Under the pieces are notes generated by a model, which saw only the letters and a program-made list of their open reading frames with translations, ran no database searches and was not told where the DNA came from. From a virus, in IMG/VR virus record IMGVR_UViG_3300047443_000155, positions 1 through 21,881 of that record: DNA of 21,881 bases; one strand, written 5' to 3'. The position numbers and the translations under genes are program-made. Numbering within the stretch: position 1 is the stretch's first letter; every line of letters starts with the position of its first letter. Below are positions 3,290 through 20,187 of the stretch, in pieces.

Positions 3290-3724
3290 CTAGATGAGAC
3301 CCTGTTCGCGCAGGTCGCGTACTACCTGCTCGCTCATCTCCCGGATCTCCTCCACCGAAGTCCCCTTCGCCGTGGCGATCAGCGCCAGCTGCACCGTTTT
3401 CAGAGCCTCCCTGTCCAGCACCTCACGAGGCAGCGGCGACTTCTGGACATCCGGAGCGCCATCTTCCTTCATGTCGCTCACAGGGATGGGTTCACCGCCC
3501 TCGGCCACCTTGAGGCAACTGCCCGGCGCCCATTGCAGCAAGCCGTCGATCTTCACGTAGTTGGTCTCCCGGATGGGGAGGGCCTTCTCGACTCGCTGCC
3601 ACGTGCCCTTGGAGACGCCGGCCTTCTTGGCGTTGGCGTCGTTCAGGGCGATGCCGAGGTCGGCGCGGCGGCGTCGGGCTGCCCGCGCCAGCCTCTCGAG
3701 GTCGTGATCGGTAGGGGATGGCAT
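3290..3724 (-). CDS. Putative phage repressor, HTH protein
   Basis: A 144-residue protein read leftward, divergent from the Cro-like gene at 3901, so its position is that of an immunity repressor. Residues 8-48 resemble a divergent HTH: a basic helix LERLARAARRRRADLG, then NDANAKKAGVSKGTWQRVEK, where AGVSKGTWQRVE fits the turn and recognition helix. Residues 50-75 continue as the end of the fold. The C-terminal 50 residues are helical (EVLDREALKTVQLALIATA) and could mediate dimerisation; no peptidase Ser/Lys dyad is apparent. I chose the ATG at 3724 because the 41-residue extension to 3847 would run through the operator-like repeats. No clear Shine-Dalgarno precedes it, so a leaderless mRNA is possible. 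Confidence 0.7.
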   Translation of the reverse strand: MPSPTDHDLERLARAARRRRADLGIALNDANAKKAGVSKGTWQRVEKALPIRETNYVKIDGLLQWAPGSCLKVAEGGEPIPVSDMKEDGAPDVQKSPLPREVLDREALKTVQLALIATAKGTSVEEIREMSEQVVRDLREQGLI

Positions 3725-3726
3725 GG

Positions 3727-3887
3727 GGTCATCTTGGCAGGACTGGCGGGGACCAGCCAGGACTAGGGGCGACTTAGGCCCAAAAGAGACCCTGCGTTTG
3801 CCCAGCTCACAGGCTATCTGAGGCCTACAGGTGACAACTAGTGGCAACTCAAGGCCATCTATGGCTAGACGTCAGGGTCATCTAGGG
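3727..3887. promoter_or_regulatory. Divergent control region with four GGYYATCT operator-like repeats
   Basis: Four related 12-mers lie between the repressor and Cro-like starts: GGTCATCTTGGC (3727-3738), GGCTATCTGAGG (3812-3823), GGCCATCTATGG (3853-3864) and GGTCATCTAGGG (3876-3887). The third lies in a palindrome GCCAT-CT-ATGGC (3854-3865). A 10-bp direct repeat GTGACAACTA/GTGGCAACTC abuts at 3831-3850. The first repeat sits right at the repressor start and the last 13 bp before the Cro-like ATG, as expected for operators of an immunity switch. Confidence 0.55.
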
Positions 3888-3900
3888 GTAACTTCTACGC

Positions 3901-4146
3901 ATGGCACAAACCCCAACCACTTTCGAAGTGGACGGGACGGCTATCTGCACCAAGCGCATGCAAGCGGGGATGGAAGTCCAGCAGCTCGCCGACCTCGTCG
4001 GCATCACCGCGAACTACCTCCGAAAGCTGGAGCGCGGAGCCCGCACCCGCATGAGACCTGGCCACTACCAGGCCCTCAGAGCCGCCCTGGACGCACACCA
4101 GACCGAACTCCTCGCCCCCCACCCGGACCCCCCTGAAAGGAAGTGA
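3901..4146 (+). CDS. XRE-family HTH protein, Cro-like
   Basis: An 81-residue DNA-binding protein. After a short N-terminal strand, residues 18-70 form an XRE HTH: KRMQAGMEVQQLADLVGITA, then NYLRKLERGARTRM as the recognition segment, then a helix AALDAHQTELL. It is the first gene of the rightward transcript, divergent from the repressor-like gene and one base before the excisionase-like gene. By position it would act as Cro or as an early activator. AGGGG at 3884-3888 lies 12 bases before the ATG, rather far for a Shine-Dalgarno. Confidence 0.8.
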   Translation: MAQTPTTFEVDGTAICTKRMQAGMEVQQLADLVGITANYLRKLERGARTRMRPGHYQALRAALDAHQTELLAPHPDPPERK

Positions 4147-4147
4147 A

Positions 4148-4420
4148 GTGAACACCACGCAGTCCCCCACGGCCCCCACCACGGTGGACATCGACGGCCC
4201 GCGTTACTACGACCTGCGCGAAGTCGCCTCGATCCTCAAGTGCAGCGTTCGCACCGTGCGACGCCTCCTCGCTGACGGCCGACTCGGCTACAGCCAGGAG
4301 AAGAAGGGCGGCGTCATCCGCGTCAGCGACGCCGACATCGCCGCCTACTACGAGGCCAGCCGCATCGGGCCGGTCGTAGCGCACCGCTCCCGCCGTAGGC
4401 CGGCCCGCGCCGCCGCCTAG
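4148..4420 (+). CDS. Excisionase-like helix-turn-helix protein
   Basis: A 90-residue protein with a MerR/excisionase-type winged helix at residues 15-72. YYDLREVASILKCSVRTVRR is the HTH, RLLADGRLGYSQEK the turn with a wing, and VIRVSDADIAAYYEA the closing helix, which matches the DNA-binding excisionase (HTH_17) pattern. Proteins of this kind bend attachment-site DNA and steer integrase toward excision, or act as transcriptional regulators. The GTG start is preceded by GGAAGTGAA. The gene begins one base after the Cro-like gene, so the two are co-transcribed. Its distance from int fits expression on induction. Confidence 0.75.
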   Translation: MNTTQSPTAPTTVDIDGPRYYDLREVASILKCSVRTVRRLLADGRLGYSQEKKGGVIRVSDADIAAYYEASRIGPVVAHRSRRRPARAAA

Positions 4421-6850: not shown

Positions 6851-7044
6851 CCCGCCCGATCTCCGACCTGGACGTGAGCAGCAGCGTGGTGGAGGCGGAT
6901 ACCCGCCTGAACTCGCTGCTCGCCACACCGCCGCTCGGCCACGTCAAGGCCCTGCAGCCCGCCGCCTGGTACGAGCAGGTCTTCGACCTCCTCGCCTGCG
7001 CCCACCCCGAGAACTGCACCTGCACGCCTGAGGAGGCGTTGTGA
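6847..7044 (+). CDS. Small hypothetical protein
   Basis: A 65-residue protein with an acidic N-terminal helix and a C-terminal CAHPENCTC cluster, which could bind one metal ion. It overlaps the previous gene by ATGA and the next by GTGA. No family is recognised. Confidence 0.55.
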   Translation: MTRPISDLDVSSSVVEADTRLNSLLATPPLGHVKALQPAAWYEQVFDLLACAHPENCTCTPEEAL

Positions 7045-7415
7045 CCCTCTCCGAGATCTACCTGAAGGCCGCCGAGGTCATCGAGTCGAACGGCCACGCC
7101 AAGGGCGACTTCTACAGCGTCCCCGAAAGCGGAGTCGGCATCGAGAAGAGCCGCAGCGAGTACCCGGTGTGTGCGGCCGGGGCCCTGTCGGTCGTCATCT
7201 TCGACGACCCGGTCCCGCCCCGCGAAGGAGAAGACGGGCGCGCCGAGTTCGAAGCGGTCGTCGCACGCCTGAACGCCCGCATCGAGGACTTCCACCTGTA
7301 CAGCTTCCACGGCGAGCCGCCCGTGCTGCGGCTGACCGGCTGGAACGACGCCGCCGAACGCACCGCCGCCGACGTCATCGCCGCGTTCGAGCGCACTGCG
7401 AAGGCGGTGGCGTGA
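7041..7415 (+). CDS. DUF6197-like protein, copy 1
   Basis: A 124-residue protein. It follows the pattern of the DUF6197 family: an opening helix with AAEVIESNGHAKGDF, a middle VCAAGALSVVIF segment, and a closing WNDAAERTAADVIAAFERTA helix. The family is frequent in Streptomyces and its phages and has no known function. A second member lies at 8410-8766. The two share NGHxKxDxY near the start and WNDAxxxxxxxA near the end. This copy lacks the Cys seen in NGHCK of the other. The GTG start overlaps the previous stop. Confidence 0.7.
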   Translation: MTLSEIYLKAAEVIESNGHAKGDFYSVPESGVGIEKSRSEYPVCAAGALSVVIFDDPVPPREGEDGRAEFEAVVARLNARIEDFHLYSFHGEPPVLRLTGWNDAAERTAADVIAAFERTAKAVA

Positions 7416-8309: not shown

Positions 8310-8413
8310 AGACGCTCGCCCTCTGCATCACCCCGGCCGTACTGCTCGTCGCGTTCGCCGTCGCCTTCGTCCGCACCTTCTGCACCGTTGAGACGCCCGA
8401 GGAGGACCAGTGA
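8306..8413 (+). CDS. Tiny single-pass membrane protein
   Basis: A 35-residue peptide from GTG 8306 (GTGA overlap with the previous stop) to TGA 8411-8413, which in turn overlaps the next GTG. A Lys at position 2 is followed by a continuous hydrophobic stretch from about residue 4 to 22 (LALCITPAVLLVAFAVAFV), then an acidic tail ending in PEEDQ. This is a standard single transmembrane helix. The double overlap and AAGGAGGGG at 8295-8303 before the GTG support real translation despite the short length. Confidence 0.6.
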   Translation: MKTLALCITPAVLLVAFAVAFVRTFCTVETPEEDQ

Positions 8414-8766
8414 GCACGCTCGCCACCCCCACCGACGCCGAGATAGCCGACCTCCTCGGCAAGGCGGCCGACGTCATCGACACGAACGGGCACTGCAAGC
8501 GCGACCTGTACGACCACAAGCAGGCCGCGGGCGGCACCAAGCCGGCGAACTGCCGGGTCGACATCATCGGCGCCCTCAACATCGCCGCGCACGGCGTACC
8601 CGTGTACACCGGCCGCGACCTCCGGGTCTGGGCTGCCGAGCAGGCCATCCTCAACCGGATCCCCGAGGCGGCGATCGTCACCTGGAACGACGCCAGGGGT
8701 CACGGCAAGCGGGAGGCCGCCAAGCTGCTCCGCGACACCGCGAACGCACTCCGGGAGGCGTCGTGA
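8410..8766 (+). CDS. DUF6197-like protein, copy 2
   Basis: A 118-residue protein with the fuller DUF6197 signature: AADVIDTNGHCKRDLYD near the start, a central CRVDIIGALNIAAHG, and WNDARGHGKREAAKLLRDTA at the end. It is related to the 7041-7415 protein, probably by an old duplication. The Cys in NGHCK and the CRVD motif are kept here. The GTG start overlaps the previous stop and GGAGGA lies at 8401-8406. The function of the family is unknown. Confidence 0.75.
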   Translation: MSTLATPTDAEIADLLGKAADVIDTNGHCKRDLYDHKQAAGGTKPANCRVDIIGALNIAAHGVPVYTGRDLRVWAAEQAILNRIPEAAIVTWNDARGHGKREAAKLLRDTANALREAS

Positions 8767-14513: not shown

Positions 14514-15373
14514 CCACGGCCGCCGAAACCCACACCCCGAGCCGCGCCTGCTACCTCCGCGGCTGCCGTACCGACGCCTGCGCCCAGGAGAACTACCGCT
14601 ACGGCAAGAAGCTGGCCACCGAACACGTCCGAGGCGAACGCCGCCTCCACGACATCGCCCAGGTCCGCACCCACATTGAGCAGCTCCTCGCCAACGAGTG
14701 GTGGCAGGCAGAGATCGGCCGTGTGAGCGGAGTCTCCCGGTCGACCATCAGCCTGATCGTCCTGGGCCACCTGCCGCGCACCAACAAGCGCATCGCGCTC
14801 GCCATCCTGTCCATCCCGATCACCCCCATCGTCCGCACCGTCGATGGAGACCGAGTCGACGCCACCGGAACCATCCGCCGACTGCACGCCCTCGCCATCC
14901 TCGGACACAACTGGACAGTCGTCGGCGCCCGTACCGGCATGACACCGGACCGGCTCAGCTTTATCGCCCGCGGCAAAACGGATGTGGTCCGCCCCGAAGA
15001 AGCGCAAAGGATCGCCGCCGCATACCGGGACCTGTCGACAACGCCCGGCGCAATGAAGCAGATCGTCACCAGCGCACGCAACAAAGGCTGGCACGGACCA
15101 CTGGCCTGGGACGACATCGACGACCCGAACTGCAAGCCGGAAGAGGCCAAACCGTACAAGCCCGCCGACAAGTACCGGCGTGACCCCGACCGCACGCGGG
15201 AGATCGAACACCTCTACCTGCTCGGCGAATCTCCGCAGCAGATCACCAAGAAGCTCGGCGGCAACGAGAAGTACATCAGCGACCAGCTCAACGCGGTCAT
15301 CGCCAAGCGTGCGGCCAAGGCCGAACGAGAGCGACTCGCGGCCAAGCAGCAGCGGAAGCAGGTGGCCGCATGA
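14510..15373 (+). CDS. Multi-HTH DNA-binding protein of phage type
   Basis: A 287-residue protein with three HTH-like segments. Residues 63-88 include WWQAEIGRVSGVSRSTISLI. Residues 125-155 include LGHNWTVVGARTGMTPDRL. Residues 232-260 include LYLLGESPQQITKKLGGNEK. The start carries CYLRGCRTDACAQENYRYG, a short Cys motif common at the N terminus of actinophage HTH proteins. GWHGPLAWDDIDDP near 193-206 is another recurrent element of the group. The Lys/Arg-rich C-terminal helix (265-283) probably adds nonspecific DNA contact. It overlaps both neighbours. It may be a transcription regulator of early or middle genes; the exact role is unknown. Confidence 0.7.
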   Translation: MTTAAETHTPSRACYLRGCRTDACAQENYRYGKKLATEHVRGERRLHDIAQVRTHIEQLLANEWWQAEIGRVSGVSRSTISLIVLGHLPRTNKRIALAILSIPITPIVRTVDGDRVDATGTIRRLHALAILGHNWTVVGARTGMTPDRLSFIARGKTDVVRPEEAQRIAAAYRDLSTTPGAMKQIVTSARNKGWHGPLAWDDIDDPNCKPEEAKPYKPADKYRRDPDRTREIEHLYLLGESPQQITKKLGGNEKYISDQLNAVIAKRAAKAERERLAAKQQRKQVAA

Positions 15374-15789
15374 ACCGCGCCGCCATCGAGGAACTCCTGC
15401 ACGCCGGCTTCGGCAACAAGGCCATCGCCCAGCAGGTCCACGTGTGCCGCAGCCGGGTTGCCGCGGTTCGCGCCGAACTCGGCCTCCCCAAGAGCACCCG
15501 GCGGTACGAGGCCAGCAGCGCCGAGGACCTGTTCTGGCGCCGCACCCAGCCCGCCGACGGCGGACATCTCGCCTGGACCGGCTACCGCAACGGCAAGGGC
15601 GTGCCCGCGGTCCGCACCGTCGACGGCATGCGCACCGCCTACCGCATCGCCTTCCAGATCCGGTGGGGCCGCGAGCCCGTCGGCTACGTCAAGTCCGGCT
15701 GCGAATACGAGGGCTGCGTCCACCCCGAGCACGTCGAAGACCAGGCCATGCGCGACCAGTACGCGGCGATCTTCGGCGCAGCTGCCTAG
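15370..15789 (+). CDS. HTH plus HNH-like protein, nuclease residues incomplete
   Basis: A 139-residue protein. Residues 4-38 are a small HTH (LHAGFGNKAIAQQVHVCRSR). Residues 56-125 follow the layout of phage HNH endonucleases: FWRRTQ, HLAWTGYRNGKG, RTAYRIAFQIRWG, then CEYEGCVHPEHVE in the position of the usual 'CrnpxCvNPxHLe'. The conserved His of 'LdHlC' is absent (VKSG at that point). Zinc ligands Cys111, Cys116 and the His118/His121 pair remain. It may therefore bind DNA without cutting. The ATG overlaps the previous stop (ATGA). A strong hairpin follows 14 bases after the stop. Confidence 0.65.
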   Translation: MNRAAIEELLHAGFGNKAIAQQVHVCRSRVAAVRAELGLPKSTRRYEASSAEDLFWRRTQPADGGHLAWTGYRNGKGVPAVRTVDGMRTAYRIAFQIRWGREPVGYVKSGCEYEGCVHPEHVEDQAMRDQYAAIFGAAA

Positions 15790-15803: not shown

Positions 15804-15824
15804 GGCCCCGCCGGTGGCGGGGCC
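15804..15824. terminator. Bidirectional-type GC hairpin between convergent genes
   Basis: GGCCCCGCC (15804-15812), loop GGT, GGCGGGGCC (15816-15824): a perfect 9-bp stem with a 3-nt loop between the converging HNH-like and antitoxin genes. No T-tract is present on either side. It may end both transcripts. Confidence 0.65.
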
Positions 15825-15843: not shown

Positions 15844-16131
15844 TCAGAGAACGTCGTCGTCCGACTTGACGCGACGCTTCACGACGCGCCGCGGCGTGGC
15901 CTTGGCCAGCAGCTCCTCGTACAGGTCCGCATCCTCCGCCTTAAGCAGATCGACCAGCCGGCGCAGGGACTTGGCCTCCTCGTAGCGCTTGACGGAGACG
16001 AGCACGGCCTGCGGCTTGTCGCGGCGAGTGAGCACGAAGTCGACGTCGAGCAGCCGAGCCTCGGCGATGACCTCGGTCATGTTCGCGCGGGCTTCGGAGA
16101 CTCCCAGTTCCCGAATCTTCGGCTCACTCAT
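15844..16131 (-). CDS. Phd/YefM-family antitoxin without a toxin partner
   Basis: A 95-residue protein (ATG 16131; an alternative GTG at 16146 adds five residues). Residues 5-52 match the Phd/YefM DNA-binding fold: IRELGVSEARANMTEVIAEA, then FVLTRRDKPQAVLVSVKRYE, where the 'tr.gkp.avlvs...ye' strand pair is typical. The C-terminal 40 residues are helical and basic, the part that in the family binds toxin. The gene is the only minus-strand one right of 3724. No toxin lies downstream: a hairpin and the converging HNH-like gene follow. It may protect against a host toxin-antitoxin response or act as a repressor. A TGTACA operator lies upstream. Confidence 0.85.
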   Translation of the reverse strand: MSEPKIRELGVSEARANMTEVIAEARLLDVDFVLTRRDKPQAVLVSVKRYEEAKSLRRLVDLLKAEDADLYEELLAKATPRRVVKRRVKSDDDVL

Positions 16132-16156
16132 GAGACCAGCATACACAGAAGCTCGC

Positions 16157-16182
16157 TTGTACCGTCCGTCGGGTTGTACAAT
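16157..16182. promoter_or_regulatory. TGTACA-type operator and promoter at the antitoxin start
   Basis: A palindrome TTGTACAA lies at 16174-16181 and a half-like TTGTACCG 17 bp away at 16157-16164. YefM-type antitoxins are known to bind palindromes with a TGTACA core, so autoregulation is likely. On the plus strand TACAAT (16177-16182) is a good -10 within the palindrome. It could serve the initiator gene at 16289 under the same control. Confidence 0.55.
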
Positions 16183-16288
16183 TCAGTGGTTGGCGAAGCT
16201 CCCGCACCACGAGCGACGCCGCCCCCATGAGGGCTGCCTCAAAACAGCGAACCACCAGCAGAGACACCCTCCTGAGAGAAGAGAACTG

Positions 16289-17200
16289 ATGGGCTACGAG
16301 CTCCGCCGCGAGATCCGTGAGGCGTTGGGTCCCAACGTCACCGGCCTTCAGCGCGCCGTCGCGCTGGAGATCGCCGATGACGCGCGGCACGACGCTGACG
16401 GGCGCCGGAGTCGGGCCTCCCTGAAGGACTTGGCTCGCTGGAGCGGTGCCAAGGACACGGCGGTCGTCCGCAACGCTCTGAAGCGCCTCGCCGAGGCCGG
16501 CTGGGAGTTCCGCGTACCGATCGGTAAGGGCAAGGACGGCCGGATCCTCTACGCGACCCCGGGCCACTCCATGGAGTTCAGGGTTCCGTACCCGCCAGAA
16601 GGTGCCCCTGCTCACTCTGAAGGAGCCCCTGCTCACTCTGACGAAGAGAACGAAGAAGGAGCCAGGGCTCATTCAGAAGGAGCAGGGGCTCACTCAGAAG
16701 GTGCCCCCGCTCATTCAGAAGGAGCCGGGGCTACCCCCCCCTCACAAATCACAACCCACATACCAACTACTCCCGCTGACGCGGCAGGCGACGAGTCCGC
16801 TCGGGGTGACGCCGAAACGCAGCAGCGGGACGACTCCACCGGTGTCGCCGCCAAGAAGCCGGCGAAGAAGGTCAGTCGCAAGCCAGCCGCCAAGAAGGCC
16901 GCCGAGTATCCCGTCGCTGACGAACTCACTGCCGCCTTCTGGGACCGGCACGGCAAGGGGCGCGCCCAGTCCTTCGTCGCCGTCCGCTCGGTGATCCGTA
17001 CCGCTGTCGGCAACGGCGTCGAGCGCAACGACCTCGCCCGCGCCCTTGATCGCCTGGTCCGTGACGGCATGTCCGTCTCCGGCTCAACGATCGACATCGC
17101 CCTCAACAAGATCCGTCGCCCCGGAGGCCAAGCCGCGCCGGCCCCGGCGCCCCGCAACATGACCGAAGAGGAGAAGAAGCGTGCCCTCAAGTTCGGCTGA
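16289..17200 (+). CDS. Replication initiator-like winged-helix protein with internal repeats
   Basis: A 303-residue protein that by position (directly before a DnaC-like loader and DnaB) should be the phage replication initiator. Residues 18-98 form a winged helix: LQRAVALEIADDARHD, SRASLKDLARWSGAKDTAVV, RNALKRLAEAGW and a beta wing. Residues 104-149 consist of a repeated heptapeptide EGAxAHS, five full copies plus one partial. A Thr/Pro linker and a Lys/Ala segment like histone tails (189-205) follow. Residues 208-277 form a helical C-terminal domain (AFWDRHGKGRAQSFVAVRSV), probably for helicase or loader contact. The ATG follows GAGAGAAGAGA, a weak Shine-Dalgarno. It overlaps the loader gene by 20 bp. 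Confidence 0.75.
   Translation: MGYELRREIREALGPNVTGLQRAVALEIADDARHDADGRRSRASLKDLARWSGAKDTAVVRNALKRLAEAGWEFRVPIGKGKDGRILYATPGHSMEFRVPYPPEGAPAHSEGAPAHSDEENEEGARAHSEGAGAHSEGAPAHSEGAGATPPSQITTHIPTTPADAAGDESARGDAETQQRDDSTGVAAKKPAKKVSRKPAAKKAAEYPVADELTAAFWDRHGKGRAQSFVAVRSVIRTAVGNGVERNDLARALDRLVRDGMSVSGSTIDIALNKIRRPGGQAAPAPAPRNMTEEEKKRALKFG
16598..16735 (+). repeat. 21-nt repeat array (iteron-like) inside the initiator gene
   Basis: Repeat units start at 16598, 16619, 16655, 16676, 16697 and a partial unit at 16718, each about GAAGGNGCC..GCTCAYTCN. They are in phase except for a 15-nt insert at 16640-16654. GAGCCCCTGCTC (16623-16634) is the exact reverse complement of GAGCAGGGGCTC (16680-16691), and GAGCC-AG-GGCTC (unit 3) is a palindrome. 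Confidence 0.8.
16731..16774. other. G-free, lower-GC tract: candidate replication origin with the repeats
   Basis: Forty-four bases contain no G on the plus strand; 16741-16770 has 13 G/C of 30. This is a sharp break from the GC-rich surroundings, directly after the repeat array. Iterons next to an easily melted tract inside the initiator gene resemble the lambda O/ori arrangement. Origin function is inferred. Confidence 0.45.
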
Positions 17201-17804
17201 CGAACTCAGCCCCCGCGAATCCTGGCTCCAGGAGCGCAGTCAGTACGCGCTTCAGCGGTTCGACGAGCGGACCCCGCTCATCTACCGCCAGCCCATCAGC
17301 GTCCACGAAGACGTCCGCAAGTGGATCGCCGGCTGGGGAGGAACCAGCCTGTTCCTCACCGGATCCCTCGGCGTGGGCAAGACCCACACCGCCTGGCGGA
17401 CCTGCCGCCTGTGGCTCGAAGCCTGGTACGCGCCCACTCGGCCGTGGACCGCGGGCGGACCCGACGTCCGCACCTACCGGTCGACGTCGCTGTTCGACGC
17501 GCTGCGCCCGGACGGGCCCGACGAGGTGCGCCGCACCCTGGTCAGGGAGCTCCAGGACTGCCAGCTGCTGTTCGTCGACGACCTCGCCGCCGCCAAGGCG
17601 TCGGTGTGGACGCAGGAGCGGCTGTTCGAGATCTTCGACGAGCGGTACATCAACCGCCGCCCCGTGGTCATCACTTGTGACGTGCTGCCCGGCGAACTGT
17701 CCGAGGTGACGGGCCCGCGGGTCGCCTCCCGGCTTGCCGAGATGTGCGGCGACAGCATCGTCCTCCTCGAGGGCGACGACCGCCGTAAGGGGGCGGCGGC
17801 GTGA
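17181..17804 (+). CDS. DnaC-like AAA+ ATPase, helicase loader
   Basis: A 207-residue AAA+ protein of the DnaC/IstB type, which would load the replicative helicase on the origin. Motifs: Walker A GSLGVGKT at 61-68, Walker B LLFVDDL at 129-135, a sensor-1-like VVITCD at 162-167, and an arginine-finger-like GPRVASRL with Arg184. The first 40 residues (RSQYALQRFDERTPLIYRQP) are helical and could contact the helicase. Start GTG 17181 overlaps the initiator gene. It ends with GTGA overlap into the methyltransferase gene. DnaB lies one gene further, so the pair is probably functional together. Confidence 0.85.
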   Translation: MPSSSADELSPRESWLQERSQYALQRFDERTPLIYRQPISVHEDVRKWIAGWGGTSLFLTGSLGVGKTHTAWRTCRLWLEAWYAPTRPWTAGGPDVRTYRSTSLFDALRPDGPDEVRRTLVRELQDCQLLFVDDLAAAKASVWTQERLFEIFDERYINRRPVVITCDVLPGELSEVTGPRVASRLAEMCGDSIVLLEGDDRRKGAAA

Positions 17805-18823
17805 CGAACCTCAGCCTGTGCTCCGGCTATGGCGGTCTCGACCTTGCCGTCGAGCAGATCACCGGCAACAAGACCCTCGTCTACGCCGAGAACGACAAGT
17901 TCGCCGCCCAGGTCATGGAAGCCCGCTTCCCATGGGCCACCAACCTCGGCGACATCAGCAAGACCGACTGGGCTGCACTCGCCCAGGAGCACCACTTCGA
18001 CACCATCGCCGCCGGCTTCCCCTGCCAGGGACTCTCCAACGCCGGCCTCCGGAAGGGATTCCTCGATGCCCGCTCGGCGCTCTGGAAGAACGTTGCTGAA
18101 GCTGTTCGCGTCATTCGACCTCGCCTCGTCTTCCTGGAAAACGTGGCGGCGATCCGGTCGCGCGGCCTCGGCGAAGTCGTCGCCGACCTGGCCACGATCG
18201 GGTATGACGCGCGGTGGACGTGTGTACGAGCTGGAGACCCGTCCGTCGGCGCGCCGCACCCGCGCGACCGCTGGTTCCTCGTCGCCTATCCCACTGCTCA
18301 AGACCCCGACAGCGCAGCTTGGCGTGAACGGTGGACCGCAGCACCCGGACAAGCGGAAGGCCGGGGGGCACGGGCCGACCTTGGAGGACGAGGTGGTCTT
18401 CCTGTTCTCGCCGCCGCCGGCGGCATAGCGCTCCTGCCTACCCCGAAGGCCAGCGACGGGCCGAACGGCGGCCCCAACCAGCGTGACGGGCAGGGCAACT
18501 ACTACCTGCCCGGCATGGCGGTGCGCCTCGGGCAGGACTGGGTCGGTACGAACGGCTCCGACTACGGGCCGGCCATCCGGCGTTGGGAGGTCGCCACCGG
18601 CCGACCCGCACCCTTGCCGACCGAGCCCGGCGAGCGCACCAGCCGACGCCTCAACCCGCTGTTCGTCGAATGGCTCATGGGCCTGCCTGAGGGCTGGGTT
18701 ACCGACCTCGGCCTGCCTCGCGCGCAGCAGCTCAAGATCCTCGGCAACGGCGTCGTCACCCGCCAGGCCGCCGAGGGCTACCGCCGACTTCTGACCGCCG
18801 ACCTGGAGGCGATGGCCGCGTGA
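17801..18823 (+). CDS. dcm: C5 cytosine DNA methyltransferase (internal out-of-frame segment)
   Basis: A 340-residue C5 methyltransferase that would transfer a methyl group from SAM to cytosine and so protect phage DNA or mark it. Motif I is LSLCSGYGGLD (4-14). Motif IV is GFPCQ with catalytic Cys75. Motif VI is ENV (113-115), motif VIII GAPHPRDRWF (150-159), and motif X LKILGNGVVTRQAAEGY near the end. The target-recognition region is odd. Residues about 165-208 read as low-complexity text, while the +1 frame over the same DNA (18294-18425) encodes LLKTPTAQLGVNGGPQ, closely like the in-frame LLPTPKASDGPNGGPNQ that follows. Two compensating shifts are suspected, yet the whole ORF stays open. 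It sits between loader and helicase with overlaps on both sides. Confidence 0.85.
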   Translation: MTNLSLCSGYGGLDLAVEQITGNKTLVYAENDKFAAQVMEARFPWATNLGDISKTDWAALAQEHHFDTIAAGFPCQGLSNAGLRKGFLDARSALWKNVAEAVRVIRPRLVFLENVAAIRSRGLGEVVADLATIGYDARWTCVRAGDPSVGAPHPRDRWFLVAYPTAQDPDSAAWRERWTAAPGQAEGRGARADLGGRGGLPVLAAAGGIALLPTPKASDGPNGGPNQRDGQGNYYLPGMAVRLGQDWVGTNGSDYGPAIRRWEVATGRPAPLPTEPGERTSRRLNPLFVEWLMGLPEGWVTDLGLPRAQQLKILGNGVVTRQAAEGYRRLLTADLEAMAA

Positions 18824-20187
18824 CCACCGAAACCGACATCTGGGGCCCCGACGAGGCCCCGCCAGCCCCCGGCACCTCCGCCACCGAGGCTGAACGCGTC
18901 ATCGCCGCCTCCGTCATGGCCCGCCCCGAACTCATCGACGAACTCGCCGGAGAGTTCGACCCCGCCGACATGCAGATCGACGCGCTGCGCTGGGTGTGGC
19001 ACGCCGTCGACGAGATCCGCGAGGCCCTCACCAAGGGTGAGATCCGCTGGCAGGCCGTCGACCGGCAGCTGCAGGCCTGGCGCGCCACCGGCTACCTGCC
19101 CGTCCCGCCCCTGGACCTTGCCCAGCTCTCGCAGCTGTACGACCTCGCCCAGACCTCATACCCGGCCGGCTCCTACTACGCCAAGCAGATCACCGAGGCC
19201 GCCATCGCCCGCCGGTTCCTCGCGATCGGCTCCGACATCAGCCTGCGCGGACGGTCCGCGGCCTTCGACTCGGCCACCGACATCTCCGCCATCCAGGACG
19301 CCCTCGATGACGTCGTCCGCAACCGCGACACCAGCACCCCCAAGCTGCTGCGCGACATCATCGGCGGCGCCCTTCAGCGATCCGTCACCCCGCCCAGCCT
19401 GGAGCAGGTCGTCCCCACCGGATTTATCGACCTCGACGCGCTGCTCTCGGGCGGCTTCAAGCCCGGACAACTCGTCGTCGTTGCCGCCCGGCCCGCCATG
19501 GGCAAGTCGACCCTTGGCCTCGGATTCGCCCGCGCCGCCGCCATTCGCAACGGCATCCCGACCCTCTTCGAATCCCTCGAAATGGGCGACGCCGAACTCG
19601 GCGACAACATCCTCTCCGCCGAAGCCCGCGTCCCCCTGCACCACATCAAGCAGGGCATCGTCGACGACGCCGGCGTCCAGCGCGAAGCCCGCGCCATGCC
19701 CCGCATCAACGAGGCGCCGCTCTACCTCAACGACTCGGCCGAGCTGTCCCTGCCGATGCTGCGCGGGCGCGTCCGTCACCTCATTCGCACCGCCGGGCTC
19801 CGCCTGGTGATCGTCGACTACCTACAGCTCATGGACGCGCCCAAGGCCGAGAACCGGCAGGCCGAAGTCTCCAAGCTGACCCGCGGACTCAAGCTGATGG
19901 CCAAGGAGTTCGGGATCACCCTGATCATCCTCGCCCAGCTCAACCGGGGCCCCGAGCAGCGCACGGACAAGAAGCCGATGGTCTCCGACCTGCGCGAGTC
20001 CGGGGCGATCGAGCAGGACGCCGACATCGTGATCCTCCTGCACCGCGAGGACGCCTACGAACCGGACTCTCCGCGGGCCGGGGAAGCGGACTTCATCGTC
20101 GGCAAGCATCGGGCCGGCCCGAAGGCCACGGTCACGACCGCCTTCCAGGGCCACTACGCCCAATTTATCGACATGGCGCAAAGCTGA
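18820..20187 (+). CDS. dnaB: DnaB-type replicative helicase
   Basis: A 455-residue RecA-fold hexameric helicase. The N-terminal domain (about 20-110) carries the DnaB-type start EAERVIAASVMARPELIDEL. The C-terminal domain begins near 197 with VVPTGFIDLDALLSGGFKPG. Walker A is ARPAMGKST (223-231), the ESLEM element follows at 251-255, Walker B is LVIVDYLQLM (329-338), and the late motifs LAQLNRGPEQRTDKKPMVSD and LRESGAIEQDADIVILLHRE are intact. The length is normal for the family. The GTG start overlaps the methyltransferase stop. It would be recruited by the upstream initiator and loader and then work with host primase, since no phage primase is seen here. Confidence 0.95.
   Translation: MTTETDIWGPDEAPPAPGTSATEAERVIAASVMARPELIDELAGEFDPADMQIDALRWVWHAVDEIREALTKGEIRWQAVDRQLQAWRATGYLPVPPLDLAQLSQLYDLAQTSYPAGSYYAKQITEAAIARRFLAIGSDISLRGRSAAFDSATDISAIQDALDDVVRNRDTSTPKLLRDIIGGALQRSVTPPSLEQVVPTGFIDLDALLSGGFKPGQLVVVAARPAMGKSTLGLGFARAAAIRNGIPTLFESLEMGDAELGDNILSAEARVPLHHIKQGIVDDAGVQREARAMPRINEAPLYLNDSAELSLPMLRGRVRHLIRTAGLRLVIVDYLQLMDAPKAENRQAEVSKLTRGLKLMAKEFGITLIILAQLNRGPEQRTDKKPMVSDLRESGAIEQDADIVILLHREDAYEPDSPRAGEADFIVGKHRAGPKATVTTAFQGHYAQFIDMAQS

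Follow-up and report, generated by a model that had tools for sequence, protein, structure and literature searches.

Proteins of the Phd/YefM family are best described from type II toxin-antitoxin (TA) systems such as YefM-YoeB and Axe-Txe, where the YefM/Axe operator consists of TGTACA cores with a 12 bp spacing (PMC7730913). A family member has also been linked to the expression of a replication initiator in a prophage: in Pseudomonas prophage Pf4, the Phd-type protein PfiA of the PfiT/PfiA pair is accompanied by a ParE-type toxin, does not bind its own promoter without that toxin, and has a palindrome that was not found elsewhere in Pf4 (PMC7264888). A lone Phd protein might therefore bind DNA weakly. 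Phd_YefM ORFs are also listed for the Streptomyces flavovirens phages SF1 and SF3 (KT221033, KT221034; PMC5336643), where they are annotated merely as antitoxin or hypothetical protein and the divergent gene has no assigned function. We found no description in the open-access literature of a Phd-type repressor of phage replication genes. The lambda CI-type immunity repressors have a divergent operator region, a leaderless mRNA and replication genes downstream, and their DNA-binding head and operator are exchanged together. Here we analyse a lone phd-like gene whose product, as judged from comparative sequence analysis, is most likely an on/off switch of the DNA-replication genes in a family of Streptomyces phages.

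The window, by which we mean the whole 21.9 kb stretch of an IMG/VR virus record that was analysed, runs from integrase-side genes on the left through a long rightward operon to replication genes on the right. The putative repressor gene (15844-16131, minus strand; 95 amino acids) is the sole leftward gene called within the rightward block. Its ORF has two in-frame starts, GTG 16146 and ATG 16131, of which the GTG is less likely because both the promoter spacing and the aligned relatives favour the ATG. The protein matches PF02604 (E-value 2e-10; 40.6 bits against a Pfam cut-off of 29.8), the only such match in the whole record, and TIGR01552. An AlphaFold model built from 31 relatives has a pLDDT of 85.7, and its top Foldseek structures (2a6q, 3hs2 and 4zlx) are YefM, RelB and Phd folds. 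A Phd/YefM DNA-binding domain is thus present. It forms the head of the protein (residues 1-50; 15982-16131, minus strand), with a median pairwise identity of 64% among the 31 relatives, and is followed by a C-terminal tail (residues 51-95; 15844-15981, minus strand) of helices and a disordered basic end (RRVVKRRVKSDDDVL). Between this gene and a convergent HNH-like gene (15370-15789, plus strand) lies a GC-rich 9-bp hairpin, GGCCCCGCC-GGT-GGCGGGGCC (15804-15824). Comparable hairpins are found downstream of most relatives' phd genes, and the element is likely to terminate transcription in both directions and so to separate the replication operon from the operon upstream. The original prediction of a real, lone antitoxin-like ORF, opposite to its surroundings and set between a hairpin and a palindrome, is confirmed by Pfam, TIGR01552, the fold and the coordinates.

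The intergenic region contains three putative operator boxes. The distal box O1, TTGTACAA (16174-16181), has a single occurrence in the window, 50 nt before the phd ATG. It overlaps the replication promoter's -10, TACAAT (16177-16182, plus strand), which lies inside the palindrome and has a predicted transcription start at about 16189. Box O2 is a second GTAC core (16159-16162) 17 bp from O1; some relatives keep GTAC at this position and in others it is degenerate. Box O3 is itself degenerate (GTAT, 16141-16144) and shares bases with the phd -10 (TATGCT, against a consensus of TATCCT; 16138-16143, minus strand); a full GTAC core stands at this position in three relatives (L048, L057 and L076). 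The phd -10 is only 6 nt before the ATG, and the phd mRNA is therefore probably leaderless. Support for the rightward -10 comes from four relatives in which the divergent ATG follows TACAAT by 6 nt (L054, L035 and L036) or 7 nt (L060), the spacing expected of a leaderless gene from its -10; homology with these loci places the expected start of the window's replication operon near 16189. The palindrome had been proposed to overlap a good plus-strand -10 ahead of the initiator. The -10 itself held up, but no -35 to match it was found by consensus scan, which leaves room for the involvement of an activator or for a start elsewhere. Such a scan also gave no sigma-70 promoters and no U-tract terminators of the classical kind.

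This layout shares the fold, the TGTACA cores and the autoregulatory arrangement with YefM-YoeB and Axe-Txe. It differs in that the window gene has no toxin gene and a tail that is not conserved, in that the putative operator extends over a divergent replication promoter as well, and in core spacing, which is 17 and about 18 bp here as against the 12 bp centre-to-centre spacing of the YefM type.

We collected 34 non-redundant loci from scans as the relatives of the window gene (the Phd-1 family); the seven from named genome contigs are all Streptomyces or an "Actinobacteria bacterium". The box TTGTACAA is exact in 33 of them, at -50 from the ATG in 29, at -51 in one and at -71 in three, while the remaining relative, L078, has CTGTACAA in its place. 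Exact conservation in 33 of 34 loci, mostly at the same distance, argues that the box is not due to chance. GTAC cores at -31 and -13 recur in some members. The consensus of the relatives reads TGAATTGTACAAnnCGACG, then TATCCT at -12 to -7, then the ATG, a leaderless layout. Thus the DNA-binding half, the leaderless promoter and an operator box at a fixed distance are what the 34 relatives conserve. When 393 Streptomyces genomes were searched with the pattern GAATTGTACAANNCGWCG, there were three matches, each 53 bp upstream of a phd-like gene; the reversed-pattern control gave none among the matches listed. A protein search of phage and plasmid collections with the window protein returned no match. 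The cultured phage SF3 (KT221034) has a similar organisation: a leftward, lone Phd of 71 amino acids and a next gene that runs divergently from it. Its GTAC cores are at -49 and -32, the positions of the window's TGTACA boxes, and it has no toxin and no leftward gene as a neighbour. The Pfam score of the SF3 protein is 21.0, below the cut-off of 29.8.

What does the conserved operator face? In the window, the putative target is a winged-helix, O-like replication initiator (16289-17200, plus strand), followed in the putatively controlled operon by a DnaC-like loader, a C5 DNA methyltransferase and a DnaB-like helicase (17181-20187, plus strand). Of 31 loci, 26 have the start of the divergent gene at a distance of 141-160 bp. 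Among these 26, the genes tested fall into several initiator PHROGs or encode DnaB-like helicases, and the five loci left over have an endonuclease or sliding-clamp gene at this place. The operator thus overlaps the promoter of genes that are mostly replication genes. Behind phd, no same-strand gene is found in 27 of the 29 loci that have downstream sequence, the two exceptions being a 59-amino acid hydrophobic protein and a DUF6042 protein. There is no cognate toxin gene in the same operon, and none adjoins any relative; nor did any window gene that was profile-tested (part of the genes, in a record that is a fragment) fall into a toxin family. The earlier statement that no toxin ORF is adjacent is therefore borne out, and a toxin beside the gene in close relatives, which would have counted against the original prediction, was looked for and did not occur. 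Compared with Pf4, which likewise ties a prophage Phd-family protein to replication-initiator expression, the window gene has no toxin partner and its putative operator lies at the replication promoter.

The inferred untranslated leader of the replication operon (16189-16288, plus strand) contains CCCCATGAGGGCTG at 16223-16236. The sequence around this motif also occurs in phages that lack phd and have other regulators and different initiators. It gave 24 matches, of which three (L087, L091 and L092) are in unrelated coding regions and reflect chance or other contexts. As a structured RNA, the leader has four predicted pairs with no compensatory changes and no Rfam match. A leader peptide (ATG AGG GCT ...) was rejected because, by eye, L089 is one base short, which shifts the frame. 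Within the initiator gene there are two arrays of 21-bp imperfect repeats (16598-16732, plus strand), possible origin iterons, and such repeats are also present in close relatives of the initiator. The lambda origin, for comparison, lies within gene O. Elsewhere in the window, a DUF6197 protein is encoded twice in one operon (7041-7412 and 8410-8763). A CI-like and Cro-like HTH pair lies near the integrase (3290-4146), followed by an HTH_17, excisionase-like protein (to 4420). The genes at 3290-4420 are a separate lysogeny switch, so the putative Phd repressor would not be the only lysogeny regulator.

The putative regulator next to the initiator can be exchanged. A scan with the window initiator gave 37 loci, which carry Phd-1, a second Phd family (Phd-2) or HTH-like proteins, and many of which have no divergent gene. 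In three of these loci the first 97 initiator residues closely match the window's, at 96% identity in L096, 96% in L097 and 92% in L098, and the initiator DNA is mostly 80-96% identical in the first 300 bases, yet L096 has a Phd-1, L097 a Phd-2 and L098 an HTH-like protein beside the initiator. For L097 and L098, the alignment does not continue into the DNA upstream. The Phd-2 family comprises 20 loci, and GTAC cores stand at -58, -31 and -13 in 17 of the 18 checked; the two proximal positions coincide with those of Phd-1. Its distal box, ATGTACAT, has a TGTACA core as TTGTACAA does in Phd-1, and in the same 17 loci is adjoined by a TATGAT/TATTAT-like -10 on the opposite strand. Several Phd-2 loci face genes other than an initiator. 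Four members (L143, L144, L146 and L147) have a further GTAC core at -8, over their own start region. In phages without phd, small proteins outside the Phd family are encoded divergently in its place, with upstream repeats of other kinds. One such group (L084, L085, L086, L089, L098 and L101) has repeated TTCGCG motifs upstream, and another, encoding a different HTH-like protein (L090, L093, L108 and L112), has TGTGGCCACA and TAGCCAACA repeats. The HTH assignment of these two replacement groups is weak (PF13384, E-value 0.002; PHROG 686, E-value 0.006).

We consider it quite probable from these comparisons that the window protein is an autoregulated repressor of the replication operon, with an antitoxin DNA-binding fold, and that protein and operator are exchanged as one cassette. 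Its N-terminal head would bind, as a dimer, the array of TGTACA-type operators in the intergenic region. Because O1 covers the rightward -10, its occupation is proposed to silence the initiator-DnaC-methyltransferase-DnaB operon, and boxes near -31 and -13 would cover the leaderless phd promoter, so that the protein would also regulate itself. The upstream terminator would make the replication operon dependent on its local promoter. The replication genes of a prophage, or of a phage early in infection, would remain silent up to the point where the repressor disappears. Head and operator would form a specificity cassette that can be swapped for the second Phd family or for HTH-like proteins, while the tail would be exchanged separately and be dispensable for the conserved function. 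The divergent operator region, the inferred leaderless mRNA, the replication genes downstream and the joint exchange of head and operator all resemble lambda CI. The differences are the Phd/YefM fold in place of an HTH fold, the location within the early operon and apart from the integrase-side CI/Cro-like pair, and the variation of the tail rather than the head. One option in the original prediction, that the protein represses the replication genes, receives strong comparative support from the position of the operator on the replication -10, the genes downstream and the HTH-like replacements.

The other option was that the protein neutralises a host abortive-infection toxin. As an orphan antitoxin, it would use its C-terminal half against host toxins during infection, with the DNA-binding half serving only autoregulation. 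Membership of the Phd/YefM family points this way, as does the annotation of its PHROG match (PHROG 2268) as antitoxin and moron, and phage orphan antitoxins against host toxins exist (T4 Dmd; DarTG work, as cited in PMC12548467). Variable tails would fit an arms race, and the tails are variable indeed. Median pairwise identity drops from that of the head to 9% in the remainder, and among 73 pairs with heads more than 80% identical, 36 have tails less than 25% identical. In a DNA comparison of L041 and L039, identity is about 76-96% between -170 and codon ~50 and 6-53% thereafter. But there is no conserved C-terminal toxin-neutralising segment: the tail is non-homologous or missing in most relatives, and some nine members are only 60-76 residues long, which leaves them hardly any toxin-binding half or none, yet they keep the operator.

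By sequence comparison, two tail types are shared between different heads. The DEDTSV tail is common to Phd-1 members L041-L043 and Phd-2 members L115 and L134 (raw score 157, shuffle maximum 43), and their DNA, about 50% identical in the head, reaches 90-93% identity in the tail. The RVVRVRRPKP tail is common to a Phd-1 protein (L077) and an HTH-like, non-Phd protein (L084; score 77 against 40), which is hard to reconcile with anti-toxin action. A Phd-2 protein (L140) has a similar end, RKVVVRRKKPASED, a likeness that rests on reading the proteins by eye and is unscored, the L140 and L077 DNA not aligning; AARNxAES, also by eye and unscored, is common to L062 (Phd-1) and L139 (Phd-2). Against 296 Streptomyces genomes, three tail types gave one match, in the same prophage slot, and none outside the slot. 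PADLOC has no match at the window, and the gene almost always faces replication genes. Action against a host toxin is accordingly not supported, and we regard it as unlikely.

Could the same protein instead be an activator, or mainly an autoregulator, that works from O1 on the leaderless phd promoter and hardly affects the replication genes? Lambda CI, which activates at PRM, provides a model, and O1 (centre -46.5) is placed as an activator site would be, upstream of the phd -35 region. However, every Phd-1 locus has O1 placed over the divergent -10, where a bound protein would be expected to obstruct the promoter, and we think this reading very improbable. That the gene is the decaying remnant of a TA operon that lost its toxin would suit the lack of an adjoining toxin gene and the irregular tails, but is hardly credible given a head and operator strongly conserved in 34 loci, none of which retains a toxin, and the same arrangement with other putative regulators.

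Returning to the repressor of the replication operon, it is conceivable, if doubtful, that the exchanged tails are receptors to which a freed host toxin or an anti-repressor of the phage binds to lift repression, head and operator defining a second, replication-specific immunity group. If so, the phage would sense toxin release or stress and then start replication. The proposal that the protein is a repressor can be tested in the cultured phage SF3. Lone Phd/YefM genes of phages are readily annotated as antitoxin or anti-defence genes, and the present case warns against an anti-toxin role as the default for orphan antitoxins. It suggests that in this phage family an antitoxin fold has been reused as a phage repressor, interchangeable with unrelated proteins.
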